From Ephemerocybe angulata (Eukaryota > Basidiomycota > Agaricomycetes > Agaricales > Psathyrellaceae), in assembly GCA_013368325.1 (NCBI GenBank), contig JAACJK010000004.1:372001-436000 (forward strand): DNA of 64,000 nt, in the 5' to 3' direction. The position numbers and the translations under genes were made by a program. Numbering within the stretch: position 1 is the stretch's first letter; every line of letters starts with the position of its first letter. Of this stretch, positions 16,396 through 38,995 are shown one piece after another. The notes under the pieces are model-generated. The model was not told the origin of the DNA, made no database searches, and saw nothing but the letters and a program-made list of their open reading frames with translations.

Positions 16396-17013
16396 ATGGG
16401 GAGTCTCCTCCCGTTGAAGGATACCACGTCTGCGTACGGCGAGCGTCTCCTGAAGCTGGAACTGGCCTCGCGTGGCCCTCCCGGCCCCGTCGTACCCTCA
16501 AAGCGGGCTCTCGAACCGGATGAACCCTTGTTTTCCTTTACGAGCCTTGATGGAGCCCCGTCTAGGCCGCCCGCGTTCACACCTCCCAGAGGCCCGACCA
16601 GACCGCTCCCGTCGCGTGTAGGACCTCCTGTACCTCCGCCGTTCCGCCCTGGTCCTCCCCCACCTGTTACCCCGCCCAACTCGCACCCTAGCCACCGGCG
16701 CTCCGGTGTGAAGGTCGTGCTCGTCCGTATCGGCCCTGTCGACACCAAGTCTGTAGGCGAAAAGGCGGCTCTGTCTGGATGGATTCGAGCCGCGCGGTGG
16801 ACGTCGGGCTCTGCAGTGACGAAGAAGCTCATGGTGGAGTCTATTGAGGATGTGTGGTTCTCTCCGGAGCTCACGCACCTCATGGTCAAAACGAAAATGC
16901 TCGCATCGGCTTATGATCTTGCCCAGGTCTGGAACGAGCATGTCAGGACGTCCGTGCCGGTGTGCGCTGCGGCGTCAGCAGAGACTTCCGAGCAGGAAAA
17001 CTGGGTGGAGTGA
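16396..17013 (+). CDS. LINE-like ORF1, 205 aa
   Basis: An intact frame starting MGSLLPLKDTTSAYGERL, located at the 5' end of the retrotransposon and overlapping the ORF2 region. The N-terminal half is Pro/Arg-rich and disordered. The C-terminal half (from KVVLVRIGP) looks folded. No CCHC knuckle is visible, so a gag-like RNA-binding role is only inferred from position. The start is the first ATG after the inferred 5' boundary. Confidence 0.55.
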   Translation: MGSLLPLKDTTSAYGERLLKLELASRGPPGPVVPSKRALEPDEPLFSFTSLDGAPSRPPAFTPPRGPTRPLPSRVGPPVPPPFRPGPPPPVTPPNSHPSHRRSGVKVVLVRIGPVDTKSVGEKAALSGWIRAARWTSGSAVTKKLMVESIEDVWFSPELTHLMVKTKMLASAYDLAQVWNEHVRTSVPVCAAASAETSEQENWVE

Positions 17014-18928: not shown

Positions 18929-19029
18929 GTGGCGCAGTGCTGGAGGCGGATAAGGTGCAGTGGTGGATAGGGGAGCGGCGTGGTCACGCGTTGCCGAAGA
19001 TGACGGAGACTGAGGCGGAGGCAGAGAGC

Positions 19030-19038
19030 GCGCTGACC
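19030..19038. repeat. Target-site duplication of the KDZ element, left copy
   Basis: GCGCTGACC precedes the left terminal repeat and recurs at 36817-36825 after the right terminal repeat. Because the neighbouring bases also match, the duplication can be read as 7 to 9 bp depending on where the TIR is taken to start; 9 bp with symmetric TIRs is the simplest reading. Confidence 0.85.
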
Positions 19039-19118
19039 ACCTTAGTCACATGGGAAAACTAACCTCTTAGGTTAATGAATTCTATAGAAAATTAGACCCA
19101 AGAGGTTAGGTATTTCCC
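19039..19118 (+). repeat. Left terminal inverted repeat of the KDZ element, perfect part
   Basis: 80 bp, identical to the reverse complement of 36737-36816. It contains a small internal dyad (AACCTCTTAGG versus CCAAGAGGTT). The weaker inverted similarity extends inward to about 19300. Confidence 0.9.
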
Positions 19119-19569
19119 ATCCTTTCCCTCTTCCTCTTTTCCTATTCCCCTTTCCATATTTCCTTATTCCCTTTTCCCAGTATTTCCTCCCATGATTTCC
19201 CCCTAACAATTTCCATACCTAATTTCCCTCTTCCCTTTTCCCTTTCCTTATTTCCCGTCACGGTCACGGGGTGTCCGGGGTCCCCCTCCCTTTTTTTTCA
19301 AAAATTAGCTGGTTCATTGCCTCGTCAGTCTCTGGGTGCTACAACATTCCTGCACGCTAGCTTCAGGATCACTGCCATTCTAATATGTTGTAGGTAATGT
19401 CTCAAAGCTGCTGTGATACAGTTAGTTCGATTGGACTTCTCACTCAGGCAACACAGAATGCCTGTTGACTCCGCAGCTTGAGTAGAGTCGAAATGTCGCT
19501 AATGAATGAGTATCTCAGGCAGCACGGGATAGGAATGTGACTCTGCAGCTTGGGTAGAGTAGAAGATAT

Positions 19570-19990
19570 GATATCTTGTTCTTCACCACATTTCCTTTTT
19601 TATATTTCCCTCTTCCTCATGTATTTTTCCCTTTTCCTTGTGTGCCTTTCCCTAGGAAGGTTTTCCCTTTCCCTTTTCCTCTTGGCTCTTTCCCAACACA
19701 CATTTCCCCTTTCCTTATATACATTTCCCAACACATATTTCCCTTTTCCCGTCACACATTTCCCATCACACATTTCCCGACACACATTTCCCAACGCACA
19801 TTTCCCAACGCACATTTCCCAACACGCATTTCCCTTTTCCCTACATACGTTTCCCAGCACATATTTCCCATTTCCTCATATATCTTTCCCTGGTGTACTC
19901 GTCTTTTGAAGGACATGTCTATCTATATACCTCTATCCCAAAGTACTATATTTCCCTTTTTCTCATATATCTTTCCCTATCTATGATACA
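19570..19990. repeat. Left subterminal array of TTTCCC words
   Basis: About twenty TTTCCC hexamers occur in roughly 420 bp, many as irregularly spaced CACATTTCCC units. The reverse complement array lies at the mirrored position in the right arm (35940-36300). Arrays of this sort in large DNA transposons commonly act as transposase binding sites; that role is inferred here. 19120-19300 is also TTTCCC-rich, and 19300-19570 shows nothing else. Confidence 0.75.
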
Positions 19991-20002
19991 TCTACTCCAA
20001 AG

Positions 20003-20757
20003 CAGGGACCCAAAAAGGCAGACAGGCTTACCAAAGCTGATGGTTCCCGCGCGCGTACAGCCACTGCCTCTCGCCCAACTGAATGAAAATCTGCTAAGTT
20101 ATAGTCAAGATGACTAAATAAGAAATAGATAGGTATACAGCACAGTAGTGAAGGAATAAAAGTTATTAGGAGTGTCTCAAAAGATTTGAGCCAAATACAA
20201 TGAAGGCAAGGCCTTCAAAAAAAAGAGAAAAGAAAAGGGAGTAAAGGGAATGGAACTCCCGCCTCGGCGGTGGTTCGGAATTGACACGCAGACAGAGATG
20301 CGAACCACTCCGCTACGGGAGCTCGAAAATACATGGACGGCATGCCGTCAAGCTCACCCACTCTCCCACCCAAGAAAAAGGCCTAATGTACTAACTCAAA
20401 TGGACTACCGAAGGGGCTCGTCGCGCAAGTGCGGGACGAGGCAGCAGGCCCGAAACGGGAACCATCAAGCTGATGGTTCCCGCGCGCGCGTACAGCCACT
20501 GGCTCAGGCCGAAAATACAGCCAAGTCCGCCAAATATGTCCTCCTGTAAGGCCGGAGTACTTTTGGAGGTCTAAAGAAAGAGATATAAGCAATCAGTAAG
20601 GTATTTAGGGCCGATTTGGCGACTCAGAATTTCTTACCCAAGTCGAGAGGGCCGAGGAGACGAGGAGGAGAGGCTGGAGGAGGAGGAGGGTACCGAAAAG
20701 GGTAAGCTTACCAATAATGATGGTTCCCGCGCGCGCGTACAGCCACTGGCTCCCAAA
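20003..20757 (-). repeat. Left copy of the internal inverted repeat with tRNA-like core
   Basis: This matches 35172-35860 in inverted orientation at high identity with small indels. It includes three copies of GATGGTTCCCGCGCGCG joined to TACAGCCACTGG, and a polymerase III-like core (reverse strand): GTAGCGGAGTGGTTCGC resembles an A box and GAGTTCCATTCC a B box, followed by a T-rich tract. It may be an inverted pair of tRNA-derived SINEs or a second pair of subterminal repeats of the transposon. Confidence 0.75.
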
Positions 20758-20973
20758 CGAAATCAGACAAGTAATTCGTAAAATCAGGAAGAAGAAGGGA
20801 GAGTAAGAACTGAACAGAGGTTGTTGCATTCGTAGAGCTAGGGATACACGATGTCGGAAGGAGTACAATACTTTTGGGACAAGCAAGATACACATAAGTG
20901 AAATTCTACCTGCGAAGAAAGGAAATTAATACCATGGCCCTAAACTCCTGCTTTTCAGAGGCACGAAGACGCC

Positions 20974-23900
20974 TCAATGACGACGCCAACTGTGAGGGCG
21001 AGCCCGAGGGCTCTCATTTGAGAAAGACGGCGACCTGTCGTGGCGGTGCCGACGAGGGGGAGAGGGAGACCGGCGGCGGCGGGAGTAAGACCGGCGGCGC
21101 GAGTAAGACCGGCGGCGGGAGTAAGACCGACGACGACTCCGTCCCCCGTATGCTCGAGACCCCGATGGAGAGCGGCCCCGCGACACACTCGGAGAGCGCG
21201 AACGATCCCGAACAGATCGATCCCGAGAAAAGTCCCGATGACCCTGTCGTCCTCTGGAAGACTCTCGAGCCCGAGTATTGTTGGTGACGTTGGCGACAGG
21301 AGGGCGTACAGGAGGAACAGGTTGAGACGGGACCTTCTTGGCAGGAGGGGCGACGTTGGAGTGGCCTTTCTTTGCGGGGGGAACAGGATGAAGGGGGGCA
21401 TTCTTAGCGGTAGGGGCTTCTCGAGTGACGTTGGCGTCGGAAGACACAGGCGGACGTCTGACGTTGGCGTTGGCAGACACAGGGGGACGAACCGGAGGCG
21501 GCACAGGACCGGCTCGGGGGCGAGGGCGAACCGAAGGTCGTTGGACAAGACCGGGCATTGACAACCCTCCCTTGAGGACATTGGTGAGAGGCTTCTTCGA
21601 CGATCCTTCTAAGAACTTGGGCAATGGCTTGTCACCGAGAGATCCACCATTCCCATCCTCATTCCCATCCTCGGCATCCCCAACTGGCTTCCTCGCATAC
21701 GCACGAACACTCTCCTTGATCGCCATTCGCGCCTCAGCTCGTAGAAGAGGGGCGGCAGTGCTGCCGGCGTCGTTACTCGCTGCCCAACGGCTGGCGAGCT
21801 CCTCCACAACTGGAGGGCAATCGCGCACCCGGACAAGTACAGACTCGTTACCGAACCGCGAGATACCGTGCACCAACCCGATGTCCATATAGGCCACATC
21901 GTTTCGGGAGATAGCTAACGTTTCTGCGAAAGTAATTTCAGTAATTACAGTTGCCAGCAAATGAAGCATAACATACCTTTGTCCCACAATTCAAAGTAAG
22001 GGATACTAGACTTATCCGAATCAGGGTTCTTCCACCCTTGGTACAGCTCCGTGACGAAACGGAGGCTGAGCTTGTTGACTTCGAAGCCCTCCGTTCCCGG
22101 GGCAGCAATTTCGGTGGGCCAATCGCGAAGGCAAACATGATACTGCTCGCAGAGGCACAGGATCCTCTTCCAGAAGTTCTTGAAGTTCGCGACATCCACC
22201 AGTATACCTGAGATACAAAGCAATCAGAAAGGAGAACAATGGCACTGTAGCAACGGAGATACTCACAGAATAGAACTTGCCACATCAATCTCACATTACG
22301 ACGATAATGGTCCTTCTTCGATTCGCCGTGCTTCTGTACCCAGTCCTCGCCATGAGGGAAGGTGGCCGCGAAAAGTCTGTAATCCCGCCCACCGATCCCG
22401 TCTTCTACGCCGGTACGAGGCTTCTTCTTCATCGCAGGTCGATATGGGGGAGGGGCCTGGGGATTGTGGGACGATGAAAGATCTTCATCCTCTTCACCCT
22501 CATTCCTCGAGCCCAGCGATGATGAAGCAACCGTCCCCGCGAAGATCCTATCGAGCGAGACGTCATTCGGCTCCAGGAGTCCCATGTCGAATGCCCTACA
22601 AGTACGTCAATCAGAATATGGCTACGAAGAAGCTATAAAAGAATAAAACTTACTGCAGGGCAGTGATATACCGCTCAAGTAGATTACGGACAGAGACCTC
22701 CTGATTCTCCACGATGGAACGCACGGTATCCGAAGACGCGAAAACTGAAGACAGCTGGCGAGCCGCGGGGTCCCGAGACGTGAGGATGCATGTCAGGTCG
22801 ACGTCGGTGCAGTTCCCAACACTATGGGTCTGTGACAAGGAAATCAGTCATATGGTTCGTTCAGAGCGCGATGGTACTCACAAGATCCACCAATTGGCCC
22901 GACAACTTCTTCATGTCGCGAACGGCCACAGTCGACAAACTACAAGGTTCGTCTATGACGATCCCCCGATCCAACAGTTCCTGCTCCCAGATGTCAACGT
23001 TGTCGTCGATCTCTTGCTTCGACATCAGCCTGTATTGAGCACCAGCCCACTGGGCGAAACCAGGACCCCGAGGAACTAGGAAAAGGGATGTGTTAGTGCA
23101 TTGATCGAGCATCAGGAATGAGTAATGGAAAACGTACACTTCGGCGTATCGTCCTGCTCAGCCAGCCACTTCTGATAAATGTTAAACGGGCTGACGTCCC
23201 TAGCCAGCCCGATATGAAAACCCGCCGCCTCCAAAAGCTGTCGAGAGGTACAGGTGTGTTTCTCAGCGAGCCGATGCACCGTCCCCATCAGGCCGCGGAG
23301 TTCTTCTTTGTCGGCGTCAGCGAGCGTCAACCGTTTGAACTTGGGAGCGGATGCGGTCTTGGGTTCATCCTCATCGCGCTGTTCATCCTCATCGCGCTGC
23401 TCATCCTCCTCACCACCGTCAGCGTCCATCTCAGACTCCTCCTCATCGCGCGGCTCATCCTCAGCACCATCCTCGTCCATCCCGCCATCCTCGTCCCTCT
23501 CCCCGTCCTCGTACATATCGCCGTACTCGTCCACCACACCGTACTCCTGCTGGTCGTTGCCAGGAGGAGGGGTGGGACTGCGAGGTGCACGACCTTTCCC
23601 CTTGTCCACTCGGATGGGCGCCTCTTCCTCCTCTCCGTCTTCTTGAGGACCTTGAGCGACGTTGAGCGATGGAGGGGGAGGAATGGCTGGAACTCGGCTG
23701 GAACGGCGGTCACGACGCTTCCGACGTGGAGGGCGTTCCGTTTCATCGCCGGACTCGTCACCATCGGGAGGTGGGCTGTTGCTTGCCGAGGCACGACGCT
23801 TCCCCCTTCGACTGTCGGCGCGGGCGCCTGGGACGTTGACCGATCTTGTCTTGTTAAGTCGAACGTCGCGAACAAGCTCGTCGTCGTCACCATTCCCGTC

Positions 23901-25917
23901 GCCTTCATCCTCTGAAGATTCGTCCGAAGGACCATGCATCTCGAAGTCCTCGTCACGATGGTCGCTGGCATCGCTCTCGGAAACTTCCCCCTTTGCCAAA
24001 GCACCGGCCAGTCCCGCGGTGCTGTGCGCCTCAAAGTCGGCGAGGTATCCTGGCAGGCGGCTGGCGCGGCTGGGCCTGCCAGATGCACGAGGAGAAGCTG
24101 CGGCAGGAGGGTTTCTGGCAGATATCGACAACCGTGAACTAGTCGGGGGACGACTTCTGGATGTGGACGTGGAGGGAACGACTTTGGATTGGGCGATGGA
24201 GTTGGCAGGGAGAGGTGTTCTCGGCGTAGAAGAAGGAGGAGGGGACTTGGGGATTGAAGGGACCTCGCTTTCTTTCTGCTTAGCATCTCGAACTTCGATG
24301 AGCCTCGTTATGGCGGCATTCCAGTCTTGATACACGTCCTTTTTGACCTTCGGAAGGGGGATGGACCCCCACTCTGGAACCCAGCCCATGGGAAGGTGCT
24401 CCCAACGCTGAGTCTTGGAGTTCCAGAACGTCGTGACCCGGAGAAGCCATTCATGGTCGCACATGAAGTGGTAGTCGCGGGGCATGTGAATCAAACGAAC
24501 CCAGTGGCTCGCGTGAATGAGTCTCATACCGGGGGCAGGACGACCGTACTGGACCCAGTAGTACCCATCATCCGGCGACTCCTTCAACTGACAAGGACCA
24601 TACGCATGGATTGAGTTCGGCGGGCACTCGGGAGGGTCAGGAGGCGGGACCACAGCCGGTCGAATTGGCTTCGGCTTCGGCTTCGGCTTCGACGCCATGT
24701 TCGCGGGGACTTCGACCTGAGGTGCAGCGAGGTCCTGGGGGGTGGCATCACTGTCTCGAACAGGCGCTGAGCTAGTGTAATGCAATTGTTAATACATAGG
24801 TCACAGTAAAGGATATGCCAAGGCGAACGTACCTTCCGGATGGTGTAGCGTTCCGAAGAGCTTTGACCCCTCGAACTGGCGCAGAGCTAAACAAGCGACA
24901 TGTTAATAAGCGGCAGGAAGAACAGAGAAGTACGATGGACGTACCTAACCTCCCGCTGAATGGCGTCTGGATCTTGGAAGGGTTGAGTTAGACGTCGGAG
25001 GTCTTGGGTGACATTGGATGCCTTTCGAATGAGGGTGGCGATGGCCGGATTAGTCGCTGTCGCCGTATCGGGAACACGACGGGGCGAGGGCAGTCCAATG
25101 CCGAAGGGGATCAGAGAAAGGTTTGGCGTCCGTTGGGGAGTCCGTTGAGGAGTGAAGAGATCATCGCTGCTTTCGGTAGCTCCGCGACGAGCAGGCGGGA
25201 CCCGATTGTCGGGCGTGAAGAGGCTACGAAGAGGAGGTCAGTGTTAAAGTTCTATCGGAGAATATGAGATGTAGACGAACCTTTCTATGGGAGGGATGGG
25301 TGGGGATGATCCTTCGCTGTTACGCCCAGACTCCTCGTCGCCGATATGAGGTAGATCATGGCTAGAGAGAGTCAGCACACTGTCGGAAACGAGGCGATAG
25401 AGACGTACCTTTCAGTGGGGGGTGGAGAAGACTGTGGCTCAGGTTCCCCAACGCTTCCTCCACGAGAATGGTCGGAGACACCGCCATGATCAGATCCCTC
25501 TCCGTCAGCATGGGGGGCTGGGGCTGGGTCGGCTGGAGGAGGATCGGCGGCTGGGGCAGGGACGGCAGGAGGGCCAGGAGAGCTACACGGAACGATGGTG
25601 AGTGGACTGATCAAGAAACATTGAAATGAATCCCAGAGCGACCAAAGAGTCAAGCTCGGGCGAATCAGCGTTCAGTGACCAAAGAGTCAAACTGAAAACT
25701 AGGCGACCAAAGAGTCAAGCCTAGCGCGCTGAAGGAAGGGTGGAGGCGGGGGTATTGGGGGGAGGAGACTTACTATGGGGGTGGGGGCGAAGGGGTAGGA
25801 GGAGGGCCGGCAGGAGGACGGCCGCGTCCGCGACCGCGTCCACGTCCACGTCCACGGGGCTTTGGATCGGTCGCATCAGCCTACGGTGACAGAGATGACA
25901 ACGAAGTCACATACCAT
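20974..25917 (-). CDS. KDZ-element cargo gene A: 1403-aa protein of unknown function
   Basis: A twelve-exon model: 25915-25917, 25774-25880, 25409-25582, 25281-25361, 24945-25223, 24833-24886, 23138-24771, 22882-23075, 22654-22829, 22267-22595, 21977-22207 and 20974-21923. Every junction keeps phase and the sum is exactly 1404 codons. The N-terminus is MADATDPKPRGRGRG. The next 400 residues are Pro/Ser-rich. A folded core follows (ECPPNSIHAYGPCQLKE, then Trp/His/Cys-rich to PEWGSIPLPKVKK). Then come an acidic/basic disordered region, a helical part with SLDRIFAGT and FKNFWKRILCLCEQYHVC, and an RS-type tail (RRRSYSRRRSYSRRR). I recognise no catalytic domain. The first intron would be only 34 nt, so the exact start is the weakest point. 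Position suggests a transposition accessory protein. Confidence 0.7.
25635..25720. repeat. Three GACCAAAGAGTCAAG words in a cargo-gene intron
   Basis: Three near-identical copies of CGACCAAAGAGTCAAG lie within 85 bp, inside intron 25583-25773 of cargo gene A. The same word, in either orientation, recurs nine more times between 28.07 and 28.83 kb. No copies were noticed outside the element. Confidence 0.8.
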
Positions 25918-26722
25918 TAATACAACTAACAAACGCTGGCGAAGAAAAGAGGTCGAGATCGGAAAAGAAACCGATGGAAGAGACGAGAAGAGACGGAGAG
26001 ACGACCTCTTAAATCGCGGCAAATTTCCGCTGAATAATCAGCCCCCAAGCTGTTATTGCCAAGGCACCCCAGGACACCCCCGTTCTCCCCTGGCGAATAC
26101 GAAGGCCAGTTTCGAGGGTGCACAGCGGATCAAACATTGCATAGGTACTGTGTGGTGGTAAGTTAGCCGACGCGCCAAAACGATAGCCCAAACGGTGACA
26201 TACGATGCGGAGCCCGCCTTGACTTCATCCCTCCACCCTACTTTCGCAGTCCACAGCCCCAGAATTTGAGCAAGAGAAAGGGAGAGGATTGCCGTGTTGC
26301 TGTACGTGGTGGACGTGGTGGAAGGAAGGTAAGTTGAAGATCAGGTGTCAAAGCGTTCAGGTGCCCAGCCTGATTGCCGAATGCCGAAGCTGCCGATCCT
26401 GCCGAAGGCGGATCAGTCCTATTGGGGACGCAGGCTTGGAGCCCAAAGACGCAAAGTCATCCTGGCCAAGGTATTTCTGCATATCAGGATGAATCTATAC
26501 GTATTCAGCCTAATGTGTAGCAGTTCTGTTTTTCAGACCAGACCTGATGTCCCCTGACGTCCCCCCGCCCTACCTTCGATAGGTTCAAGTCGGCGCTTAT
26601 CTCGAATGGGTTATAGGCGCTGACCTCCACCGGTCAGAGCTCAAGAACTTGTGGGAGAGGATCGCTATGCGTTCTGGGGTTCATCAATACAAATTAGTCA
26701 ATGCAAAATTGTCATTAAGTAG
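25918..26722. other. Intergenic inside the KDZ element
   Basis: Sequence between cargo genes A and B. Plus-strand splice-like signals occur near 26330-26530 but no protein can be assembled. Treated as the 5' flank of gene A and 3' flank of gene B. Confidence 0.4.
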
Positions 26723-27423
26723 TTAATTACGCTGGAATTTCAATGCTCCCCGCCGGAAGTCCTCTACAAGTTGACCAGGTCCGATCATCGCCTCACCGGA
26801 CAGCTCAAGCACCTCGCTGAGGCCTGCGGCAACCCGAGCTTTCAGAGGTTCCCATAGGCGCCAGGAAGGACCGTAGCAGTCGAGATTCAATGCAAGGCTT
26901 TGACACTCATGGACAGTTTCGGACAACTTCGTGAACTTCTCCTCCTCCCTATCAAACACCGCCGCTGCTGCGTGAAGGTCGGTCTCCTGGAGCGCGGCGA
27001 AGCGTTCGCATAAGGAACGAAGGTAGTCGTAGAGACCCTTGTGCCCGAATGCCCTGGCGATACGATTTTCGACTTGTGGCAGCCGATCGGCGAGTATCTC
27101 AAGGTCGGTCCGAGGGGGCCTGCACCAGCCATTGAGTTCGACTGAGAGAGCTGATCACATACAACGTACCTCTCTACTGGGGTGGCCTTCAATTCCACGG
27201 TCTCCTTCTGTTGTTTCTCACCACCCGACGCCCTCGTCCTTCTGCTACGTCGCTTTCTCTTATTGATTTGTTCCTTGTGACTGTGAAAGCGCATATGTTA
27301 GTGAAACGGTGAGGCAGAGCGCTTCAATTGTGCGTACCGGTCGTAGTACCGCTGAGCCTTAGCACAATCTGCTGCTTTTTTCTGCTCATCGGTGTGGTAG
27401 AGCTTCGGTCTCCCAGGCGGCAT
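26723..27423 (-). CDS. KDZ-element cargo gene B: 197-aa basic/helical protein
   Basis: Three exons (27338-27423, 27170-27280, 26723-27119) give 197 aa with consistent phases. The N-terminus MPPGRPKLYHTDEQKKAA followed by a run of Lys/Arg (HKEQINKRKRRSRRTRA) matches a short basic module seen at the start of many Agaricomycete proteins, probably nucleic-acid binding (from memory, not searched). The remaining 130 residues are predicted helical (LEILADRLPQVENRIARAF, then coiled-coil-like VFDREEEKFTKLSETVHECQ). The upstream 200 bp plus part of exon 1 are duplicated at 27590-27770. A DNA-binding accessory role in transposition is plausible but inferred. Confidence 0.7.
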
Positions 27424-27775
27424 GGTGGACGAAGAGGTCGAAGTGAGCTGTTTGATGGAGACGTTAATAACTGGGTCATGTTGGGGCCGCGGTCTAACTT
27501 TTATTCCCCCCTGCGGTCCCCTGAGGTCCTCTCGCTCCCTGAATGGGCTCGTTCGAAAGCGATGATTAACCTGAATATAGCTATGTAAATTTTCTGCTCA
27601 GCGGTGTGGTAGAGCTTCGGTGTCCCAGGCGGCATCAGGTCGAATTGAGTTGCTTGATGCGAAATGTTAATTAGATCATGGTCATGTTCTGGCAGCGGTC
27701 TTACTTTTATTTCCTCTAGCTCCCTGAGTAGGCTCGTTCGAAAGCGACAATCCACCTGAATATGACCATGTGAGT
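27385..27775 (-). repeat. Partial tandem duplication of gene B promoter and first codons
   Basis: 27385-27590 and 27590-27775 are diverged direct repeats of about 190 bp. The second contains a decayed copy of the first coding block (MPPGTPKLYHTAEQK) without the downstream exons, so it is a broken gene start rather than a second gene. Confidence 0.7.
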
Positions 27776-28882
27776 TTTATGTCGGCGAAATGAGTTTGTG
27801 GCCTACCGTCGGACCGACAACATTACGGCGCAGACGGAGCGCCTGATCAGGTCGTATTGTCCACAATCGTGCGAGGCCGGGGCCTTAGAGAGGGGGTTGA
27901 GGCTGAGTCAATAAGGATTATGAGGAGGGATGGAAAAGGGGTGGTATCGCCTCACGGACGTGTCATCTGTTGAGGGTAGGGTCAGATAATGTTCGTCATG
28001 GGCGCCTATTTAGGTTTATCACCGCATGCTGACTGGTGTCCACAACGACGAGATCGGTTCACAGGTCAGAGACATTGGCGACAAAAGAGTCAAGCCAGTC
28101 CAGATAGCCGACCAACGAGTCAAGGCTAATGGCATACCACAGCAAGCGACCAAGGAGTCAAGCAGCTGCCACCAGAAGAGAGAACACGAAGAGAGAGCAC
28201 GATGGGTCTAGAGGAGGTAGATGATGGGACTTACGGACAGCACTGAAACATAATCCAAGTGTAGCTAGTCTTGAACTAGTGGGACCTGCAGTTGGGCGCG
28301 GAGTGGGGGGACTGGCATGAGTTGAAGCCAAGCCCCTGTATCGCGAACCGGCCGCACGTGCCGCGTCAAATCACCCGTGGGACTTTTACCTTTTACCACT
28401 GTCGCGGTCGCGTCTCGAGCCTTCCATCCTACTACAACATCGACCCCGGACTCCTTTTCAGGTGAGTAACGTTCATAGCCCCTTCCTACTTCTTCACATA
28501 CGCCGGGTAACTTGACTCTTTGGTCGTTACCCTCGGACTTGACTCTTTGGTCGTCCGACGTATGAAGGACAGCTTGACTCGTTGGTCGCGTCCTAGTACC
28601 TCTTGAAGATAATGTGTGACGTGAACTGACTCGAGTTGTAGCCGTCTCGAGCCTTCCATCCTACTAGAACATCGACCCCGGACTCCTTTTCCAGGTGAGC
28701 AACGTTCATGACCTCTTCCTACTTCCCCACATACGCTGGGTAACTTGACTCTTTGGTCGTTACCCTCGGACTTGACTCTTTGGTCGTCCGACGTATGAAG
28801 GACAGCTTGACTCGTTGGTCGCTGTCCTAGTACTTCTTCAAGAGACTTAATGCGTGAACTGACTCGAGTGTAGCCGTTCACT
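27776..28882. other. Central divergent promoter region of the KDZ element
   Basis: About 1.1 kb without a gene lies between the leftward gene pair (A, B) and the rightward pair (C, transposase). It contains nine copies of the CTTGACTCTTTGGTCG-like word (three near 28.07-28.16 kb in one orientation, six at 28.50-28.83 kb in the other) and a 232-bp tandem duplication. It probably includes the start region of gene C. Confidence 0.55.
28410..28876. repeat. 232-bp tandem duplication upstream of cargo gene C
   Basis: Unit 1 (28410-28641) and unit 2 (28642-28876) share almost all bases, from CTCGAGCCTTCCATCCTACT to CTGACTCGAGT near the end of each unit. Each unit contains three of the CTTGACTCTTTGGTCG-like words at the same spacing. 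Confidence 0.85.
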
Positions 28883-31414
28883 ATGTCCCAACCCTCCTCC
28901 GAAACGACCGCTCCCCAGATGTCTGCTAAAGCATCGGTACAAAAAGAGCCGGCCTCGATCCCAATGCGCTATGGCCCCTTCCCCCTACACTCGAGCTCGA
29001 TTGAGCAACATCCAACAATATCGTTTCCTCCATCCTCAAAACCCGATGCACTCGATCCCAGTATGTTTGACTTTCTCTCCTCTCCCGTGTCATTCTGAGA
29101 AGATATTACAGGTACCTACCGGGCTACAGACGCTCTTTCTTACTTCGTTACCACCATCCCCGTCCGGGCTGACGAAGTGTTGGACGACAACGGTCCTCGA
29201 CTCTCCGTCCCGGAAGATGCAGTCTGGGCAATCTCCAGCCCCAATGTACCATTCATCGTCTTCCCCCCCACCGGCATACGCGACGCCCACGCCTTTGCAG
29301 ACGGGTGCTACGGATACGACGACCGTGCACGTTACCCACAATACGCGACTTCGAAGTTCGAGTACATCGCTTGCTCGCCTCGCCGCAACGCCGAGAACGA
29401 TCTCCTCTTCAAGAGGATCGGACGCGAGGACTGTCCCACCATCCCTACCGCCATTAACAAGGAAATCCGGATCCTGCGCCCATCCCTTGTCGCAGAGTTC
29501 AAACGGTTTCAAGACAAGTACTACCAACAAGTCATCCAGCTCCTGAAACGAGGACAGTACAGTCTCCCCGCCCTTCTCGTCACCCACATGTGCCAAACGC
29601 TGGAGCGTCTAGGGTTGGGGATGACCTTCCGCTCGATTGTTCAAAATGTCGCCGAGTTTCAGCGCACCTGTTTAGACATCGACGCCTTCATAGCCTATAT
29701 CACCAAGTTCGCCCCTCGAGCCCACACCCTCCCAGAAACAGGCCTCCTCATCCACTATCCAGTCGACAACACTATAATGGGTGCCTTCACACACGACGTC
29801 GGCGAGGCGCAGCGGTTGCATCATATGGGGATCCCGGTCTGGCTTGTCAGACCAACATGCGATATCACCCCCGACATGACCGTCCACCCAAATGCCAAGG
29901 TTCTCAAGATCCAAGACACCATCAACGCTGGCGACTCACCGATCGTCACTGACGAGTTCTACGCCGAGGAGATGGGCCAGAGGACGATCTACCCGTTCCC
30001 TCGACTTTATAGGGGCCTCCCTGGCACTCCTCTCCAGGAGGCTCTCCAGCGGGTAGGGTGCCGAGTGGCCGGCCGTCATGTTGTGTCGACTATGGGTGCT
30101 TCATCTCAGGCCCAGGAGGAGAACGACGGTTACCGACACATCCGCTCCGTCGAGCTCATGCCTTGTGAGTCGCTTACATTTGTTATCTTACTCATTACTA
30201 ACCGCCTCTCTTCAGACGTCGTTTATCAACTCCCATCGGGGCCGGGTACTTCGACTGTGCCTTCAGTCATCGAGCCAAAACCCGTCCTTTCGTTGAGTGG
30301 GGCCCCGACATCGCTCGCCGGGCTCCCCGAGATACCTTCATGGAAAGATGCTCTGTCTAAGCTGCCTCTCAAGCAAGGTTCGCCCAAAAGCACCACTCTC
30401 GCCGGCTCCGTCGCCCCGTCCCCGTACATCTTCAAGAAGTCTGGAGGGAACACGAAGCTCTACGCAGGCGGCTGGCTATCGTGCAAAGCTGCTCACATAG
30501 CAAATCTGCTAGACGATTCGTTCAGCGCCGAGTCTTTCCCTAATCGTCAGGAGTGGAGGAATTTCTTGAACAACCTCCGCTACCACTTCGACGGGCTCAT
30601 CCCCCCTTGCGCGATATCATCTACGACAACTGCACCATCGTCTTCGACAGCGTCCGCGACAGCTGGGCCTTCTTCTACGGCTGGTGAGCCCTTGCAAAAG
30701 CGCCGCCGGGTCGAACCGTCCACCTCGACGTCCAGCAAGGCGAACTCTCGGTCTGCGAAGGGTCGGGTCGTCCCAAGGATCCTCGATAATCTACCTTCTC
30801 GTACCACCAGAATCTCAAGGATCGTCTGGCTTGAGAGGCAGATCATTCTTGGGAATCGAGAGAAATTCGAGCGCGAGATGTCCGATGAAACTGTGGACGA
30901 CATCACGTACGAGCTGCACGAATTCAACTTTCGCACCGAGCTCTACATCCTCGATAGGGAGCTGCTCCCCAACGTCTGGAAAACGGCCCCGGATCTGAAG
31001 GTATCCAAACAGGAGAGGGAGACGGCTCGTATGCAAAGGGAGCTGGTACTTCGACGGGTGTTCCCCGCCGTCGATGGCGTTCATGATGGGTTCTTCCTCC
31101 GCGCGATGCCCAACGTCGACAAAGGCCTCGCATCATTGGACTGGCGAGAACGCGGCGTGCACGTACTCGCCCTTCGATGTGTAGTGACCTGCTGGCCCAA
31201 CTGCCCTGACTCGATACGGAAAGGGTCGTGGGAGCTGAAGGAGGGTCGGATCGCGGAGTTGGAGCGCCTCGTCGTTGGCTTTTACTGCGAGACATTTCAG
31301 GCACAGTACGGCCGACCTCCCATCCCTCCTGTCCGTCTTCCTCGCGCTGCTCTTAATCGAACGGGGCCTGCATCTTTCTATGGCTCACTGTTCTCTGGCG
31401 GGCCTGCCGAATGA
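28883..31414 (+). CDS. KDZ-element cargo gene C: 809-aa protein of unknown function
   Basis: Three exons (28883-29060, 29112-30164, 30216-31414) with 51-nt introns give 809 aa. The second intron is a multiple of three but has clear GTGAGT and TTCAG sites. After a short Ser/Pro-rich N-terminus there is a folded block of about 340 residues (TYRATDALSYFVTTIPVRAD, then aromatic-rich CYGYDDRARYPQYATSKFEY, and IGREDCPTIPTAINKEIRIL). It ends near HHMGIPVWLVRPTCDI. A disordered linker and a C-terminal helical block rich in Arg/Glu follow (ISRIVWLERQIILGNREKF). I recall similar hypothetical proteins in mushroom genomes but no named domain. Its codon-level integrity beside an intact transposase suggests it is part of the element. 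Confidence 0.75.
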
Positions 31415-31719
31415 GAAGGTGAGTCGCATTCTTGATTCGGCTCCTCCTCCTCCTGCCCCGATAGACTGACGAGGTTTATAGGGGTTGGTTCTGTTCTTGC
31501 TGTCAGTAGAGTGTTGATTGTCGTCTCCCGCATATCTTTCCGTACGTGAGGACATTCAGATCATTCATATCGCCAAAGATTTTGCTAACATTGCCCCCAG
31601 ATGTTCGTAGTTTAATGTTCTTGCTGCCCAATGTCACGTGTTTCGATAGCGTCCGAGTTTGGTAATTTTTTAGATCGTTGGGGATCGACGATCCATCAGG
31701 GTCTGGTACGTACTATTAC
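31415..31719. other. Spacer between cargo gene C and the transposase
   Basis: About 300 bp with no repeat or gene seen; presumably the 3' end of gene C and the promoter of the transposase gene. Confidence 0.5.
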
Positions 31720-34700
31720 ATGTCTTTCAGCTTACCCTCCAGCATCAAGTATAGGAGCAAGGCGTCTAACGCGGAAGGGCGGGGTCGATGGAGCAGTCCG
31801 TCCAAAACCTCGACCCGCCGGCCCTACGGGTCGTCTCACATCAAGTTGTTCCCGAAGGTGGACCTCCGAACCCCGGCAGGGAGCTTTACTCAAATGTTCG
31901 GCTCCTCCCCGTCTACATCCCCGACACGCTCTGTCAGAAGAGACGATTCTCCCCCGCCCGCATTCACCCTGGGTGCACCGCCAACCCCTAGGAGATACAA
32001 GGATCATAGGAGGGCCCAATGGGAGCGATGGACGCGGGAGGTTATACCTGCACTTGTACCAATCCATCTCGATGTTCTTCGCTCCTCAGAGAATCTTCGG
32101 AATATCGCACGAGACGTGCCTGGCTGCGACTGCCTCCCAACGGTTCGCCGTTGTCACGTCACGTTGGTATCTTGGGAAGGTTAGTCCTCGGCTGCTTCGG
32201 GGGGACACGTCTAACTTACGATTTCACTAGGTATCTCTACTACTTCGGTATGCTCATGCCAGCCTGTGCTCCAGCTCTATCGCATGGGGTATCTCTCCTC
32301 TGTCCCGCTTCGGCCGTCGTATGCCTTCGACATCGGCATGCTTGATTTCGTTCGTGAGCTACACCTGCGCTCGCCGCCAAACAAGACCGCATGGACTCTT
32401 GCGCTGGAGTCGTTCCTACGGGCTCGAGGCTATGTGATTACGGGTCAGGACGTGATTCGGCGGAAGTTTACGGCGAGCCTTCGGTGGTACACGTACCTCT
32501 GTATCCAGACCGACGTGACGGTGCGCAAAGCTATCGCGAAGGCTGTGAGTCGAGTATCCGATGGAGGTCTCGTGGAGGATGTCATAGAAAAGGACGATGA
32601 GGAGGAGGCGGGGTTCTGGGAGGACGAGGAGGAAGACGCCTTGGAGTACTTGGCGTCTTGCTGTCCAGCGTGCTTTGGTGGAGGTGAGGCGATGGCAAGA
32701 GGAGGTTCTGCGTGAGTGACATGGTCATTTTAGTCTATTCATTCGCTTACCGTCTCTGCAGGCCTGACGTGATTGTATGTTTGGATGCCTGCTTTACCCA
32801 GAAGCGACGGAATCCCGTCAGGGGAAAGACAGCCGATCCACCGCTTCGTCACCCAATGTCCGCGGTGCTATCGCGAGAAGAGGTTAAGCGTGCGGAGGAT
32901 TATGTCGAAAGATTACGACCGAGTCGGCCAAAAGCACGGAACAAGGAGGCGACAGCTGGGGCCGATGCAGCAACTGGGGCTGACAGTTTGGAGAAGGGGA
33001 TGAAAGTACCGAGATCGGTGCTGGATGCGTGCCAGGAGTCTTTCAAGGCGGCTGACGAGAAGCGGACAAAGGCCAGCACAAAGTACTTTGCCGATACCGG
33101 TCTCATGGCTCTGCTATGCCGGCACGACAGAGTCCTCTGGCTCGCGAACATGACGACAGCAGGGGAGCGACAGTACTTCGCAATCGCACTGATCATGAAG
33201 CTGTTCGAGTACCTTCCAGAGCATGTCACGGTCGGCATCATGTACGACATCGGGTGCCAGCTAGAACGCAGCTGTCTCAAGTCGCGCCTCATACCTAGCT
33301 TTATGCCGAGGATCTCGTGGGCGGTCTCGGTCTTTCATGCTTACGGGCACCAGTGGGCCTGCCAGCTGATCTATCACCCCCGAAAGCGCGAAGGATTTGG
33401 ACTCTCCGATGGCGAGGGATGTGAACGGTTTTGGAGCGCGATAGAGTTTCTTATACCGACGCTTCGGGTCTCCGGAGTGCGTCTACCTCCCTTATCCCTT
33501 CCCTTCCCTTACTAACCTCCTTCTAGTTCCATCAGCGACTGTTCACGCTGGACGTTCAAGTCTCGCATCTTCGCGATCAGTCACTCATTAATTTGGGTTC
33601 TTGGCTGAAGAAGAAGTATGCCAAGTGCCAGGGAAAGCGGACGCTCGCGATCGACATCCTCGGAGATCTTACGCATGGCGAGGACGAACTGCGAGCGCAA
33701 TGGGAACTTCAAGTGTCAGCGCAAACGAAGCCTCTTACTCGGGCAACAGGGGGTCTCGCCAAGAAGAGCATCAAGGCTATCCTCAGCTTGATGGACTTCA
33801 GATCTCAACTCCAGAGCGACATTCAGAAGATAGATAAGAAGGTTGCCCGGATGCGGACGACAGATGGCTTAGACGAACTCATTGAATCCCGCAGTCTATT
33901 GGCGGCTAGGAAGGTAGAGGTCGACGAGCAAATAGCTTCGAAGCGTGGCCTTCTTGGGGTGCGGGATAACGAAGACTTACAGAGGCTAATGAAAGATAAG
34001 TATCTAGAGCTTCGACTTAAGGCTCTCGCAGTCAAGGAGAGGCTGCGGGCGAAGCTTCAGGCACGGAAATTTGAACTGGAGCGGGTCGACCGGGCGTACC
34101 AGCAGGCATCTGCTAACGGTGAGTGGCTTATTGTGAGCCTGGCAACCGGAGCAATACTGACAATTCCATTAGAGACTCAATTACATACGCACATCCATAA
34201 GCAGGTCGGGCGACACCAGGGCACGATCACAAGTGTGATGAAGAAGTTCAACGACATGTGCGGGGACCTGGATAGACTGATCAAGGAGGGAAAAGCGCCC
34301 ATCGGGGCCGTTAGCCCGCGTCCTATTCCCAAGGAGGATCTGTATGCACTGCACGTCGACGCCCCGATTTGGGACGACACGGGTTTGAATGATTCTGCAG
34401 GCGACTTGGATGTACCTGGGTGGCTCGGCGATGATGAGGTGCGAAAGGGTATTATCGCGTGGTTGGATGTTGAGCGGTGTAACGAAGAACTTGTAAGGCT
34501 GAAGGAAGAGTGCTTGAACATGCAGTCGTGGGCGCGACGCGAGTTGGACAACCTCGGGACGGCGTTGCAAGTAATTGGTGCGTGGTGTTTCCGAGAAGTA
34601 AACGTACCACTAACATAGCGCGGGTCTAGATGACGAGGCCATCAGATATCAAGTGTCAAAGCGGGAGAATGCTCTGGCAACTGTTGTTGGAACTTGGCGA

Positions 34701-34994
34701 AGCCAAATTCGTGAGGTTTCGCCGGAGGCGTATGCGATGGACTGGGCCGCTGTATCTCTCGAGGAACCGTTCGATCAGGGTACCAGTGATTCCGAAGAGA
34801 GTGTTGGGAGCCAAGGCTCTGAACTCGAGGCCGATGATCGGGTTCTACAAGCTATGGAGTCGCTGAACCTCTTAGGGGAGGAGGAGGAGGAGGGGGTAGA
34901 GCCCGATGGAGATGGGGTCCTTGGCATTGAAGAGGGTTTTGAGGACGTCGAGGTTACCTCAGAGATGGGGTCGCCGAGAAAGCGGAGGCGTTAA
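31720..34994 (+). CDS. KDZ transposase with N-terminal CxC1-like Cys cluster, 1005 aa
   Basis: Six exons (31720-32179, 32231-32711, 32762-33476, 33527-34118, 34173-34577, 34630-34994), all phases consistent. Residues about 130-320 form a Cys-cluster region (GCDCLP, RRC, VCSCQP, LASCCPACFGG) of the type associated with KDZ transposases. The RNase H-fold transposase core follows: VCLDACF with D322, the conserved ANMTTAGERQYFAIALI, MYDIGCQ with D476, a WAVSVFHAYGHQWACQ block, and GEGCERFW with the acidic residue at 532/535. Coiled-coil helices follow and then an acidic tail with a basic PRKRRR end. This family is known from fungal genomes, where its transposons are often large and gene-bearing. 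All candidate catalytic residues are present, so it may be active. Confidence 0.9.
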
Positions 34995-35171
34995 CCTTAC
35001 GTGAACTAATATATCTGTTGACCTGCCCTCTCCCGCATTCAAGTTCCTTGAGAAATATTCATGCTCATCGAGACCCTGAGCCAGTGGCTGTACGCGCGCG
35101 CGGGAACCATCAGCTTGCTAAGCTGATGGCTCCCTTTTGGGCAGCTTCCCTTTTCACGAATATTTTCTTTT
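34995..35171. other. Transposase 3' flank with one inverted-repeat word
   Basis: Short 3' flank. At 35079-35130 it holds one copy of CCAGTGGCTGTACGCGCGCG followed by a hairpin (CATCAGCTTGCTAAGCTGATG). Confidence 0.5.
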
Positions 35172-35860
35172 GAGGGAGCCAGTGGCTGTACGCGCGCGCG
35201 GGAACCATCATTATTGGTAAGCTTACCCTTTTCGGTACCCTCCTCCTTCTCCAGCCTCTCCTCCTCGTCTCCTCGGCCCTCTCGACTTGGGTAAGAAATT
35301 CTGAGTCGCCAAATCGGCCCTAAATACCTTACTGATTGCTTATATCTCTTTCTTTAGACCTCCAAAAGTACTCCGGCCTTACAGGAGGACATATTTGGCG
35401 GACTTGGCTGTATTTTCGGCCTGAGCCAGTGGCTGTACGCGCGCGCGGGAACCATCAGCTTGCTAAGCTGATGGTTCCCGTTTCGGGCCTGCTGTCCTCC
35501 CGGGCCCATCGCGCAGTCGCGCAACTGGCGCTTGCTGTACTGAGTGCCCTTTCGTAGTCCTTTGATTTAGTAATGTTATTGATTTCTTGGATGGGGGGAG
35601 CGGGTGGCCTTGGCCGCTCGTAGTCACTACATTTTCGAGCTCCCGTAGCGGAGTGGTTCGCATCTCTGGCAGCATGTCAATTCCGAACCACCCCGAGGCG
35701 GGGGTTCCATTCCCTTCACTCCCTTTTTCTTCCCTTTTTTTTAAGGCCTTGCCTTCATCATATTTGACCCATACATTTTGAGCACACAATTGGTATCCTT
35801 TCTATTCCTTAACTACTTTGCGTAAGCCTGCCTACCTTTTTTGGTCCCTAGACAGGACAT
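35172..35860 (+). repeat. Right copy of the internal inverted repeat with tRNA-like core
   Basis: Inverted partner of 20003-20757. Two CCAGTGGCTGTACGCGCGCG words lie within it and a third just upstream. The polymerase III-like core is at about 35640-35720 (GTAGCGGAGTGGTTCGC as A-box-like, GGGTTCCATTCC as B-box-like), followed by T-rich tracts at 35725-35745. Confidence 0.75.
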
Positions 35861-35939
35861 TGGGTTGGATGAGAGTTGTTCTGTTGGTCCGTCTCTGGTG
35901 TCTATCTATCAGAGATAGATGGATGATTCTTACTAGCTG

Positions 35940-36300
35940 CCCTGTCAATAGGGAAATGTCCTCTAGGAAATAGGGAAATGGCTTCTGGGAAAGAGGGAAA
36001 TAGTGTTTGGGAAAGAGGGAAATGGTATTTGGGAAAGGGGGGAATGTGTATTGGGAAAGAGGGAAATGTCTATCAGGAAAGAGGGAATTGTCTATTAGGA
36101 AAGAGGGAATACCTCACTAGGAAATCGAGGAAATGCTTACCAGGAAATGGGAAAGAACAAGGGGAAATCGGGAAATCCTTTGTGGGAAGGAGGGGAATCC
36201 TTGATGGGAAACAAGGAAATGACTATTGGGAAATGGGGAAATCAAGTAGGGGAAGTATTGTGGGAAATAGGGAAATCGTATTCAGGAAATGGGGGAGGAT
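35940..36300. repeat. Right subterminal array of GGGAAA words
   Basis: About twenty GGGAAA hexamers in 360 bp, the mirror of the TTTCCC array at 19570-19990. The interval 36300-36590 has no recognisable gene. Confidence 0.75.
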
Positions 36301-36736
36301 GAATTGCAAAATTGGAAATATTCTATGGAATGTCGAGAGAGAGCGCTACATATGCAAAGAGAGCTAGAATCACTGGCTATAAACAGTGGTCGCATTGAAT
36401 AGTAGTGGATGTCAGATATGAAATAACATTTGCGCAGGGTAACAATAGAGCCTGAAGGAAGTATTGAATATGCTGGTGGAATAGATTGGCGAGGGGAGTG
36501 CTTGATGCAGTTGTCGCACTAATAGTATGGTATATGGTACTATAACATGCTTAAATCGATAGTGTGATATGGGTGCAAAATAATAAGAAAAAAATAGGGG
36601 TAGGACCCCGGATACCCCGTGACCGTGACATGGAAAAGGGAAATAGGAAGGGGAAATGGGAAAGGGATAGGAAAATAGGAAAGGGGGATGAGGTAATGTG
36701 GAAAGGGAAATAGGAAAGGAGGAAGAGGGAAAGGGC

Positions 36737-36816
36737 GGGAAATACCTAACCTCTTGGGTCTAATTTTCTATAGAATTCATTAACCTAAGAGGTTAGTTTT
36801 CCCATGTGACTAAGGT
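36737..36816 (-). repeat. Right terminal inverted repeat of the KDZ element, perfect part
   Basis: 80 bp identical, inverted, to 19039-19118, followed immediately by GCGCTGACC (36817-36825), the right copy of the target duplication. Confidence 0.9.
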
Positions 36817-36825
36817 GCGCTGACC

Positions 36826-38995
36826 GAGGAGCACGACCGGGTCAGAGCTAGGCAGAAAGAGCTGCGTATGGAGCTTCTGAATGCGCCGACTGACCGGGAA
36901 TTCTGGAGGGTCTTCAAGCGCCTCTGGTGCGCGAGCTCGTTCGAAACGGTGGACTTCACGGCGGAGGAGCTGCGGGTGGTGTTTGAGGCGCGGATGAACC
37001 CGATTGTGCCGACGCCGTCGAGCTTTGACTCGGAGCGGCTCAGGCTCAATCAGATCGCGGCCGCGGTCTCACTCCAGGGCACTACGCCTGACGACACGCC
37101 GCTGCAGTCGTTCTCCCGCTGGCTGGTGCTCGGCGACATCGAGAAGGGGAAGCTTCGCATCCGGCAGAAGCTCGATTCGGCGACTGGAGAGGACCAGGTG
37201 TCTTACCGGGACATCTTTGACATGGACAACGAGTGTCTTCTCGAGCTGTGTAATCGGTGTTTGGAACTGGGGGGTGCCCCGTCGTCGTGGCTGCGTAAAA
37301 GGCTATCGGACGAACAACAATGTGTTTGTCCTCCAGGCGGCGGTGGATAAGGCAGTCTCCGACCGGCGTCCTCTCTATGCAGCCTTCGTCGACCTCACCA
37401 ACGCGTTCCCGGCGACAGAGCATTCCACCCTTTGGCTCAAACTTCGACGGCTTGGTGCGGGAGGGCGCATGTTCGACTGGCTCCGATGGTTGTATGGGGA
37501 GATGAGCTATGTGGTCTCTCACGGGGGAGAGACGTCCACTCCCTTCAAATCGTCAGTGGGTATCTTGATCGGAGACATGTGCTCCCCGGTGCTCTGGGCA
37601 CTATATATGTCGGACCTCCCCCAGTTTATCCCGCAGGATGGTGATGATGTCGAACTGAGCGGCGTAGCGGTGACGAATGTCGAGCAGGCAGATGATGTCC
37701 TGCTGATGTCGACGAGTGAGGAGGGGCTGCGTAAGAAGGTGGAGGGGATATACAGGTGGTGCAGCGTGAATTTCATGCTGTTCAATGAGACCAAGTCGGT
37801 GGTTCTGGTGTTTGGGCGATCGGCGAAGAAGGAGGTATTTGAGTGGGGAGATGGCGGTGAGATGGCGATTAGGGACGAGGTGACGTACCTCGGATTCCAG
37901 CTATCGACTAGGGCAGCGGCGCGCTCGAAGTTGGGGACGGGGATTTTCCGGAAGCATTACGACGTGAAGGAGAAGGCGGCAGCGCGGATTGCTGGGGCGA
38001 TATGCGGGGTGGAGCGACTCACAGGCCCGTTGCCGGTTGCGATCGCCACTCGTCTTTACATGGCACTCATTGACCCTCACCTGACGCACGGGGCCGACGT
38101 GGTGGTGGATAACAACGCAAGGGCAGTCTCCAAGCTCGTCGAGGTCCAGAAGCTGTTTATTCGGCGCACGATGGGCCTTGGACCACGTAGCTCGGCCAAT
38201 ATCCTTTTTACGGAAACGGGTCTTATTCCCCTGCGGGTTCGTCGTGTCTGCCTGCTCCTCCGGTACATCCTTTATGTCCTGGAAGCACCGGCGGGGCTAG
38301 TGAAATCAGCGCTGCGAGAAGCCGTCGCACTGGACTTTGCGGGCAGGGTCTCGTGGGTTACGTCCCTGCGGTGGGCGGTGTCAGCTCTACCGTTTGAGTG
38401 CACATTCCCGGACCCCAACGGACTGCTTCAGGTCGAGGAGATAGCCACGTTGTTGGAAGAGGTGGAAGGAGGTGTAGGGAAGTGGCTTCAGGGAAGGCTC
38501 GATGCGAACCCGAAGTTGAGTCTGCTGCACGGTCGGCGGGAACCTGATGTGGATGGCGCTCTTACTGTCAAGATGCCGTTGAAGTTACGGTATTACCTCA
38601 GGGTAGCGCACCCTGGCCACCGTCGCGCCTTGACACGGGTTCTGTTGTCGGAGCATCGGTATGCGGTGGAGGCGCTACAGTGGACGCGGCCGGTTGGGAG
38701 ACGTTTATGTCGGTTCTGTGGTGCGAAGGTGGAGACAGTTGAGCACCTGTGGATGTGGTGCATGAAGCGGCCGGAGCTTTGTGCAGCACGCAAGGAGTTC
38801 ATGAGTGATGTGTGGAGAGCGGCCACGGCGGCGGAGCGAGCGAGGCTCGTGGAGCTCGACATCGATGCCGGTGCTCAGCTGGTATGGTTGCTTACCTCGC
38901 GTGATTGGGTTTCGATTGTTGCGTCGTTTGCGTATAGTATTGAACGGCTTGTAGAAAAGGTTAAGATTCCGCCGGAGCCTCGGCGTCGTGGTTAG
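36826..38995 (+). pseudogene. LINE-like ORF2, 3' part: reverse transcriptase and Cys/His knuckle
   Basis: Continues the ORF2 interrupted at 19038; codons on either side of the target duplication join in frame. A linker (FWRVFKRLW, SYRDIFDMD) precedes the RT. Near 37290 the sequence jumps from GAPSSWLR to KGYRTNNNVFVLQAA with a change of frame. By comparison with related elements about 60 residues holding the first RT motifs appear deleted. The remaining RT has FVDLTNAFPATEH, GILIGDMCSPVLWALYM and EQADDVLL (the x-x-DD catalytic pair). A C-terminal CRFCGAKVETVEHLWMWC knuckle is typical of LINE tails. The stop is at 38993-38995. Confidence 0.85.

Follow-up and report, generated by a model that had tools for sequence, protein, structure and literature searches.

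A KDZ transposon family of Ephemerocybe angulata with four conserved genes and covarying hairpin arrays that may form an RNA-level feedback circuit

A stretch of 64,000 nucleotides (nt) from Ephemerocybe angulata (contig JAACJK010000004.1, positions 372,001 to 436,000; hereafter the window) holds a complete DNA transposon of the KDZ superfamily, 17.8 kb long and spanning window positions 19038-36817. Four genes lie between its terminal inverted repeats (TIRs). Gene T (31720-34994, plus strand, five introns) encodes a KDZ DDE transposase of 1005 amino acids (aa), and gene A (28883-31414, plus strand, two introns in the coding part) a protein of 809 aa without a known domain. On the minus strand, gene C (26723-27423, two introns) encodes a protein of 197 aa that has a basic N-terminal part and is predicted to be all-helical, and gene B (20974-25917) one of about 1403 aa, RG-rich at its N-terminal end and RS-rich at its C-terminal end. 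Removal of GT-AG introns leaves each gene as a single open frame. The two divergent pairs of multi-exon genes noted in a preliminary description of this DNA are confirmed. In addition, twelve hairpins in four triplets accompany A, B and C, on the sense strand of these genes. Taken with related copies in the same genome, these features tip the balance modestly towards an autonomous cut-and-paste element in which A, B and C would be integral genes linked by an RNA-level hairpin feedback circuit.

The TIRs (19038-19177, plus strand, beginning with CACCTTAG; 36678-36817, minus strand, ending with CTAAGGTG) were delimited by repeat comparison and by the junctions of copies. They are 140 nt long and 94% complementary (137 nt at 93% when counted without gaps), bearing out the inverted repeats of the preliminary description, and their ungapped length is 71-313 nt among the nine copies measured. 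The end sequence at both 19039 and 36816 is ACCTTAGTCACATGGG. In the E. angulata genome searched (58.7 Mb, 232 contigs), the exact end 16-mer occurs 11 times and its reversed control not at all; allowing one mismatch adds 14 further sites. Matches to the TIR pattern with two mismatches (12/37) were set aside, the reversed control giving 19, and one such match, at C128, lay in sequence without the look of an element end. Ten copies have both ends in correct orientation, namely E67 (the window copy), E134, E152, E115a, E47, E115b, E117, E146, E217 and O134.

Junction comparison places a 7-bp target duplication, CGCTGAC, at 19031-19037 and 36818-36824. The 7 bp outside CACCTTAG and CTAAGGTG agree on both sides in nine of the ten copies. 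The exception is E117, whose right flank equals the left flank of C16; at C37, two ends match each other. With these counted, the 7-bp duplication is found in 11 of 11 insertions, while identity extends over the full 9 bp in 3 of 11. At every junction compared, C adjoins ACC and G adjoins GGT. Because these two bases are invariant and 7 bp, rather than 9, agree throughout, the element runs from CACCTTAG to CTAAGGTG and duplicates CGCTGAC. The 9-bp duplication claimed earlier, GCGCTGACC, does stand literally on both sides of the window copy, but it does not hold for the family, and the contrast with Zisupton that was built on it falls with it. Zisupton and Dileera, which share the transposase superfamily, have 8-bp duplications according to the available sections of Kojima (2025; PMC12730594), unlike the 7 bp here. 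This does not remove the element from KDZ, since duplication length varies inside the superfamily, Kyakuja having 7 bp. Near-identical copies with swapped flanks were also observed (C16:714227, C117:1507032, C37:14198 and 43339), in which duplications pair only between different ends, indicating recombination or inversion between elements, or misassembly.

Next to the ends, TTTCCC-type repeats on the left (19115-19980, plus strand), a likely transposase-binding region, are mirrored by GGGAAA-type repeats on the right (35947-36740, minus strand). The window copy has 33 TTCCC in its left 1.3 kb and 29 GGGAA in its right 1.3 kb, against 1-2 per 1.3 kb in the middle. All ten copies are enriched in their outer 1.3 kb (TTCCC 8-33 on the left, GGGAA 6-29 on the right) over middle-region backgrounds of 0.3-2.6 and 1.0-3.8 per 1.3 kb, respectively, with the weakest GGGAA enrichment at the right side of E217; the symmetric subterminal repeats described earlier are thereby confirmed. 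Further inside, a perfect inverted repeat of 289 nt (100% identical) has its left copy at 20466-20754 (plus strand) and its right copy at 35174-35462 (minus strand). Each side also has three copies of a 35-nt repeat with a CGCGCGCG core (20036-20752 and 35078-35457), in or near these inner repeats, and one of the left copies has diverged.

T matches the Pfam family KDZ (PF18758) with an E-value of 2e-61 and 207.9 bits (cut-off 26.6), in agreement with the earlier view of a complete KDZ element. The CxC1 domain exceeds its cut-off of 26.9 in two relatives (34.6 and 34.3 bits), and the T of the window, at 26.6 bits, falls just below. The window T contains CLDACF, YDIGCQ and DGEGCERFW, whose D, D and E we take to be the KDZ catalytic triad; the acidic residues are kept in the nine T proteins compared. 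KDZ is abundant in the E. angulata genome, with 170 domain matches, a figure in which some genes count twice because two of their exons match. A, B and C have no Pfam family match at an E-value of 0.1. Structure prediction gives C a long basic helix in its N-terminal part, and its splicing model is supported by independent annotation, as the E. angulata database protein D9611_006047 is the C of E47 plus two extra C-terminal residues. B has 1403 aa without its initial Met, or 1402 by an alternative splice. Its RS-rich end is present in all eight copies examined, with 19-39 RS and SR dipeptides in the last 160 residues, above the expectation from composition; the RG-rich start is seen in the window copy and in E117/C37. 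In the copies examined, a putative intron directly follows the ATG of B, 51-57 nt long in four of them. At the start of the window B (25881-25917), this intron is only 34 nt, so expression of B from this copy may be impaired.

The genes were mapped across copies with a purpose-written spliced aligner. Among the seven T-bearing copies with both ends, T, C and B are each present in seven and A in five, A being absent from E146 and E217 (a weak fit in E146, score 51, was not taken as A); E217 has also lost the N-terminus of T. Order and orientation are constant: A and T share a strand, C and B run on the other, and A and C start back to back in the centre. T has five introns in all six complete copies and C has two in seven of seven. 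A has two in E67, E47 and E117 and one in E134 and E115b, where the alignments begin after the first intron, and B has seven to ten per copy. Alignment of T in E47, and of B in E134, E146 and E217, required one frameshift. Partial sets of the four genes occur at C16, which ends at a contig edge, and at C37, which is rearranged, and C28:486-495k carries C, A and T. Relative to the window proteins, identity is 61-69% for T, 50-60% for A, 42-60% for C and 37-46% for B. The 57 matches to B listed in the genome are all at nine elements, and those to A are at elements or beside T, except for one 60-aa fragment on C18.

All four genes are under purifying selection. Between subfamilies, where synonymous divergence (dS) was computable, the ratio of nonsynonymous to synonymous divergence (dN/dS) is 0.08-0.12 for T, 0.10-0.32 for A, 0.12-0.20 for C (four pairs) and 0.19-0.30 for B, excluding near-identical pairs, which reach 1.24 on a handful of differences. 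Two groups of copies, E117/C16/C37 and E47/E217 (compared in gene C), are nearly identical, so their movement or copying has been recent. Furthermore, the A genes of E134 and C28 differ by a dS of only 0.10 and their T genes by 1.7, which shows that elements have exchanged A as a module.

Beyond these elements, gene C has four weak matches (24-31% identity), at C214, C152, C196 and C202, each about 3.5 kb from the gene for another KDZ transposase and divergent to it (4/4). At C214 (194300-198700; 4.4 kb read), a C-like gene with two introns accompanies a KDZ protein with a different Cys-rich N-terminal part, and no match to A was found between them. These pairs suggest a two-gene KDZ core of a C-like gene and a transposase. 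Homologues of A and C carry consecutive tags (DFP72DRAFT_1078100 and DFP72DRAFT_1078099) in another E. angulata assembly, and a distant relative of C (23%) is found in Pleurotus ostreatus. These neighbourhoods mark C as a long-standing companion of KDZ transposases, and it is probably a nucleic-acid-binding cofactor. Two-component DNA transposons are known elsewhere, such as Harbinger with its Myb-like protein and En/Spm with TnpA and TnpD. In those systems, a transposase works with a second DNA-binding protein encoded by the element, to which C may be equivalent, whereas here there are three accessory proteins plus hairpin arrays. Nuwa likewise encodes a Myb/SANT protein, as stated in the available sections of PMC12730594.

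Since A, B and C are found repeatedly within the same TIRs, their order and orientation unchanged, in a family whose proteins are 37-69% identical and under purifying selection, they are integral genes of the element, as the preliminary description had inferred, and not cargo. Two points weigh against this reading: dS is near saturation, leaving dN/dS rough, and non-autonomous copies with the same ends exist without any of the four genes in cis. These are E152 (9.3 kb), E115a (10.2 kb) and O134 (about 26 kb), in which no match to T, A, B or C was found. Copies whose boundaries exclude the accessory genes had been named in the preliminary description as a sign that these genes are foreign to the element; such copies do exist, but they lack the transposase as well and look non-autonomous, so they are not evidence that A, B and C lie outside it. 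It is highly improbable that A, B and C are ordinary cargo without a role in movement or regulation, even though the gene-less copies of 9-26 kb and the missing A of the full-length E146 would fit such a history. Cargo would hardly keep the same four genes, order and similar introns through near-saturated synonymous divergence, nor would it account for the C-like genes beside four other KDZ transposases, for the lack of B outside the elements among the matches listed, or for hairpin arrays common only to A, B and C. Because gene-less copies keep both the ends and the subterminal enrichment, the ends probably suffice in cis, with T, A, B and C able to act in trans. O134 (C134:666780-711718) has an internal tandem duplication of about 9 kb and contains the inserted E134, some 140 bp short of the right end.

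Two of the hairpin triplets of the window lie in predicted introns of the 5' untranslated region (5'-UTR) of A, namely A1 (28462-28641, plus strand; hairpins 28506-28531, 28533-28558 and 28568-28593) and A2 (28695-28873, plus strand, donor GTGAGC; hairpins 28739-28764, 28766-28791 and 28801-28826). A third lies upstream of C (28074-28234, minus strand; hairpins 28142-28167, 28104-28129 and 28074-28099), with a GTAAGT donor at 28234 and an uncertain acceptor, and the fourth is in a 191-nt coding-region intron of B (25583-25773, minus strand; hairpins 25699-25724, 25671-25696 and 25634-25659). Each hairpin consists of variable arms of 2-10 pairs, a 5'-side bulge of 2 nt (TT, TA, TC or TG) and then GACU-loop-GGUC. 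The core varies between subfamilies, with a loop of 4 nt in E67, E47, E117 and E217 and of 5 nt in E134, E115b and C28. Six elements contain 63 hairpins in 21 triplets, four triplets each in E67, E47 and E117 and three each in E134, E115b and E217. Two more triplets each at C28 and C147 bring the count to 75 hairpins in 25 triplets and eight elements. Only clusters of three were counted, with the pattern widened by hand to known variants; lone hairpin-like matches (E117 position 1015; C28 488712; C147 310802 and 310976) were dropped, and the arrays of C16 and C37, near-identical to E117, are not included. Spacing within triplets is characteristic of the gene, at 27-28 then 33-37 nt for A, 28-29 then 30-38 nt for B and 35-43 then 26-30 nt for C. 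Each of the 21 arrays shares the strand of its gene, preceding A and C and lying inside B; in E217, an array precedes the deleted A. The arrays lend support to the earlier impression that the mirrored architecture and central motifs form a coordinated system.

Arms of at least four pairs are formed by 59 of the 63 hairpins, compared with 2.2% of random positions. Covariation was computed on 50 of the 52 distinct hairpins in the six elements. Paired cells amount to 92.6%, against 75.1% after shuffling (0 of 500 shuffles as high), and the covariation score is 0.488, against 0.152 for shuffled and at most 0.105 for slid partners. Compensatory changes occur in six of ten pairs. Beside the bulge (columns 3-6 with 22-25), the wobble pairs are six G-U and no A-C, and the core U-G pair is present in 49 of 50 hairpins, both of which indicate sense RNA. 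Moreover, in A- and B-type arrays a further stem encloses the first two hairpins in 9 of 15 predicted folds, by our own reading of the folds.

The B array occupies a coding-region intron of 190-210 nt in E67, E47, E117 and E217, compared with 47-70 nt for most other B introns. In 19 of the 21 arrays, the first core is preceded at 46-82 nt by a GTRNGT donor, against 11% at random positions. Most arrays are followed downstream by acceptor-like sites; the two A arrays of E117 have none within 160 nt. Folding energies of whole introns (z of -2.8 and -2.4 for the A introns, -1.2 for B and +1.5 for C) weakly support structure and are not strand-specific.

Several observations count against an intronic, sense-strand RNA. 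The numbers of compensatory pairs and of pair types do not exceed those in shuffles (82 and 234 of 500), and the two outermost arm columns show no sense-strand wobble skew (G-U 5, A-C 9). The antisense of the two A introns folds nearly alike (z of -1.9 and -2.2). Two of the 21 arrays (A2 of E67 and the C array of E115b) have no GTRNGT donor, the antisense side has one at the same distance in 6 of 21, and splice signals are the sole basis for predicting 5'-UTR introns of A and C. The arrays might instead act as DNA, as inverted-repeat clusters close to the A, B and C promoters, either bound by an element-encoded protein such as C or extruded as cruciforms, in transcriptional autoregulation. Their position between the divergent genes, shortly upstream of where A and C start, and the long helix predicted for the basic N-terminal part of C would suit this alternative, which we nevertheless consider unlikely. 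A reader of duplex DNA would not need pairing, yet the arm sequence is free to change while pairing stays; the core U-G pair and the inner-arm G-U without A-C point to the sense strand, and so does the location of 21 of 21 arrays on the strand of their own gene. One array type is inside a coding-region intron of B, and E146 has C yet no arrays.

The hairpin core pattern is confined to these elements in the genome searched. A 15-base core pattern, TTGACTCNTTGGTCG, which covers only the subfamilies with a 4-nt loop, has 59 sites in the genome, all at these elements, and none with the reversed control. Over 308 kb, made up of the window and 28 of 43 loci, a single-hairpin covariance model found 86 matches; array-bearing elements account for 80 and C147 for five, with one weak match in E152 (E-value 0.53) and none in E146 or C214. 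An Rfam search of 19000-36900 at E-values up to 1 found no match at the arrays; its sole signal was a sub-threshold RsmY (21 of 57 bits) at 20168-20276, away from them. The confinement of the core pattern would also agree with arrays whose RNA counters silencing or serves as a decoy, for instance as a target or inhibitor of fungal RNA interference or nuclear surveillance, and compact intronic hairpin repeats could be released as stable RNA. However, the arms are short, at 2-10 pairs, the core varies by subfamily, and this explanation accounts neither for the link to A, B and C nor for the absence of arrays from T; we hold it to be very unlikely.

The distribution of the arrays, read as RNA signals of the element, bears on the identity of their partner. 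At C147, two triplets with an altered core (GACTCYCTGTC or GACTCCTTGTC) lie upstream of an A of 31-38% identity. In the transposase domain, C147 shares 66-67% identity with E67, E146 and E134, and these three share 76-78% among themselves, so that C147 is most simply an outgroup and E146, which retains B and C, has lost both A and the arrays. This association of A with the arrays is suggestive. Against it stand its origin in one loss event (E146), the retention of arrays in E217 after the deletion of A, and A itself, which has no recognised domain and a poor structure model (pLDDT 49). We infer that A is the best candidate array partner, because A and the arrays were lost jointly; B was also considered, on account of its SR-like tail.

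From these observations, a working scheme can be drawn. T would recognise the TIRs and the mirrored subterminal repeats, cut at CACCTTAG...CTAAGGTG and duplicate 7 bp of target, with C as its probable nucleic-acid-binding cofactor. A, B and C, but not T, would start with introns carrying the three-hairpin arrays, and an element-encoded protein, most likely A, would bind them in the unspliced transcripts of the three genes, the SR-protein-like B with its RS tail being a possible partner. Such binding could control splicing or export of the accessory mRNAs and so provide RNA-level feedback, through a hairpin core that differs by subfamily. More tentatively, and somewhat short of an even chance, the element could be a DNA transposon with its own RNA-based regulation, in which leader-intron triplets are bound by A together with the SR-like B, and whose subfamily-specific circuit has co-evolved since before the split of C147. 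The viral Tat-TAR and Rev-RRE systems also place bulged hairpins near the 5' end of a message and pair them with arginine-rich proteins of the same element. The likeness is one of working, not a demonstrated relationship; the arrays here are intronic and in threes and their binding is presumed.

Among described KDZ elements, Kyakuja of Laccaria bicolor comes close, with a KDZ transposase, a 7-bp duplication, CA..TG termini and an extra gene within the element, all features shared here (Kojima, 2025; PMC12730594, in its available sections). There, the extra gene encodes a TET/JBP dioxygenase, whereas A, B and C have no Pfam match to one at an E-value of 0.1; distant PE-type enzymes are recognised by structure, and the structure model of A is poor. 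Kyakuja-1_LB and Kyakuja-2_LB are stated to lack TIRs, in contrast to the 71-313 nt of the E. angulata copies, and the same sections mention neither four conserved genes nor hairpin arrays. KDZ1-KDZ3 of Cryptococcus neoformans, shown to be mobile, have a transposase with KDZ and CxC1 domains, TIRs of 139-241 bp and lengths of 9-11 kb (PMC12810828, in the part available). The type of transposase, the long TIRs and the large size are common to both families, but the duplications are 8 bp (KDZ1) or 4-8 bp (KDZ2, KDZ3) rather than 7 bp, a transposase gene only is described there, and the 9-11 kb compare with 15-19 kb for the E. angulata family. In the open-licence literature searched, mostly as listings of papers, neither a four-gene KDZ type nor such arrays were described. 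What the available sections of the papers present of KDZ is the transposase and, in some elements, a TET enzyme, whereas here a four-gene element has been kept over deep divergence, together with a strongly covarying RNA motif that matches no Rfam model. A regulatory role of the arrays, if real, would make this a eukaryotic DNA transposon that encodes its own RNA-protein circuit, and a source of orthogonal RNA-protein pairs.

At C28:567000-583000, two right ends with the same flank lie about 5.2 kb apart, in a local duplication near a partial T gene. For the comparison with empty sites envisaged in the preliminary description, the sole element-free site found is a diverged paralogue (C13:164916-165238, 81% identical), which is uninterrupted across the junction. 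The window copy itself is inserted between frames resembling a long interspersed nuclear element, with endonuclease and RNase H on the left (16917-18531) and reverse transcriptase on the right (36998-38992).

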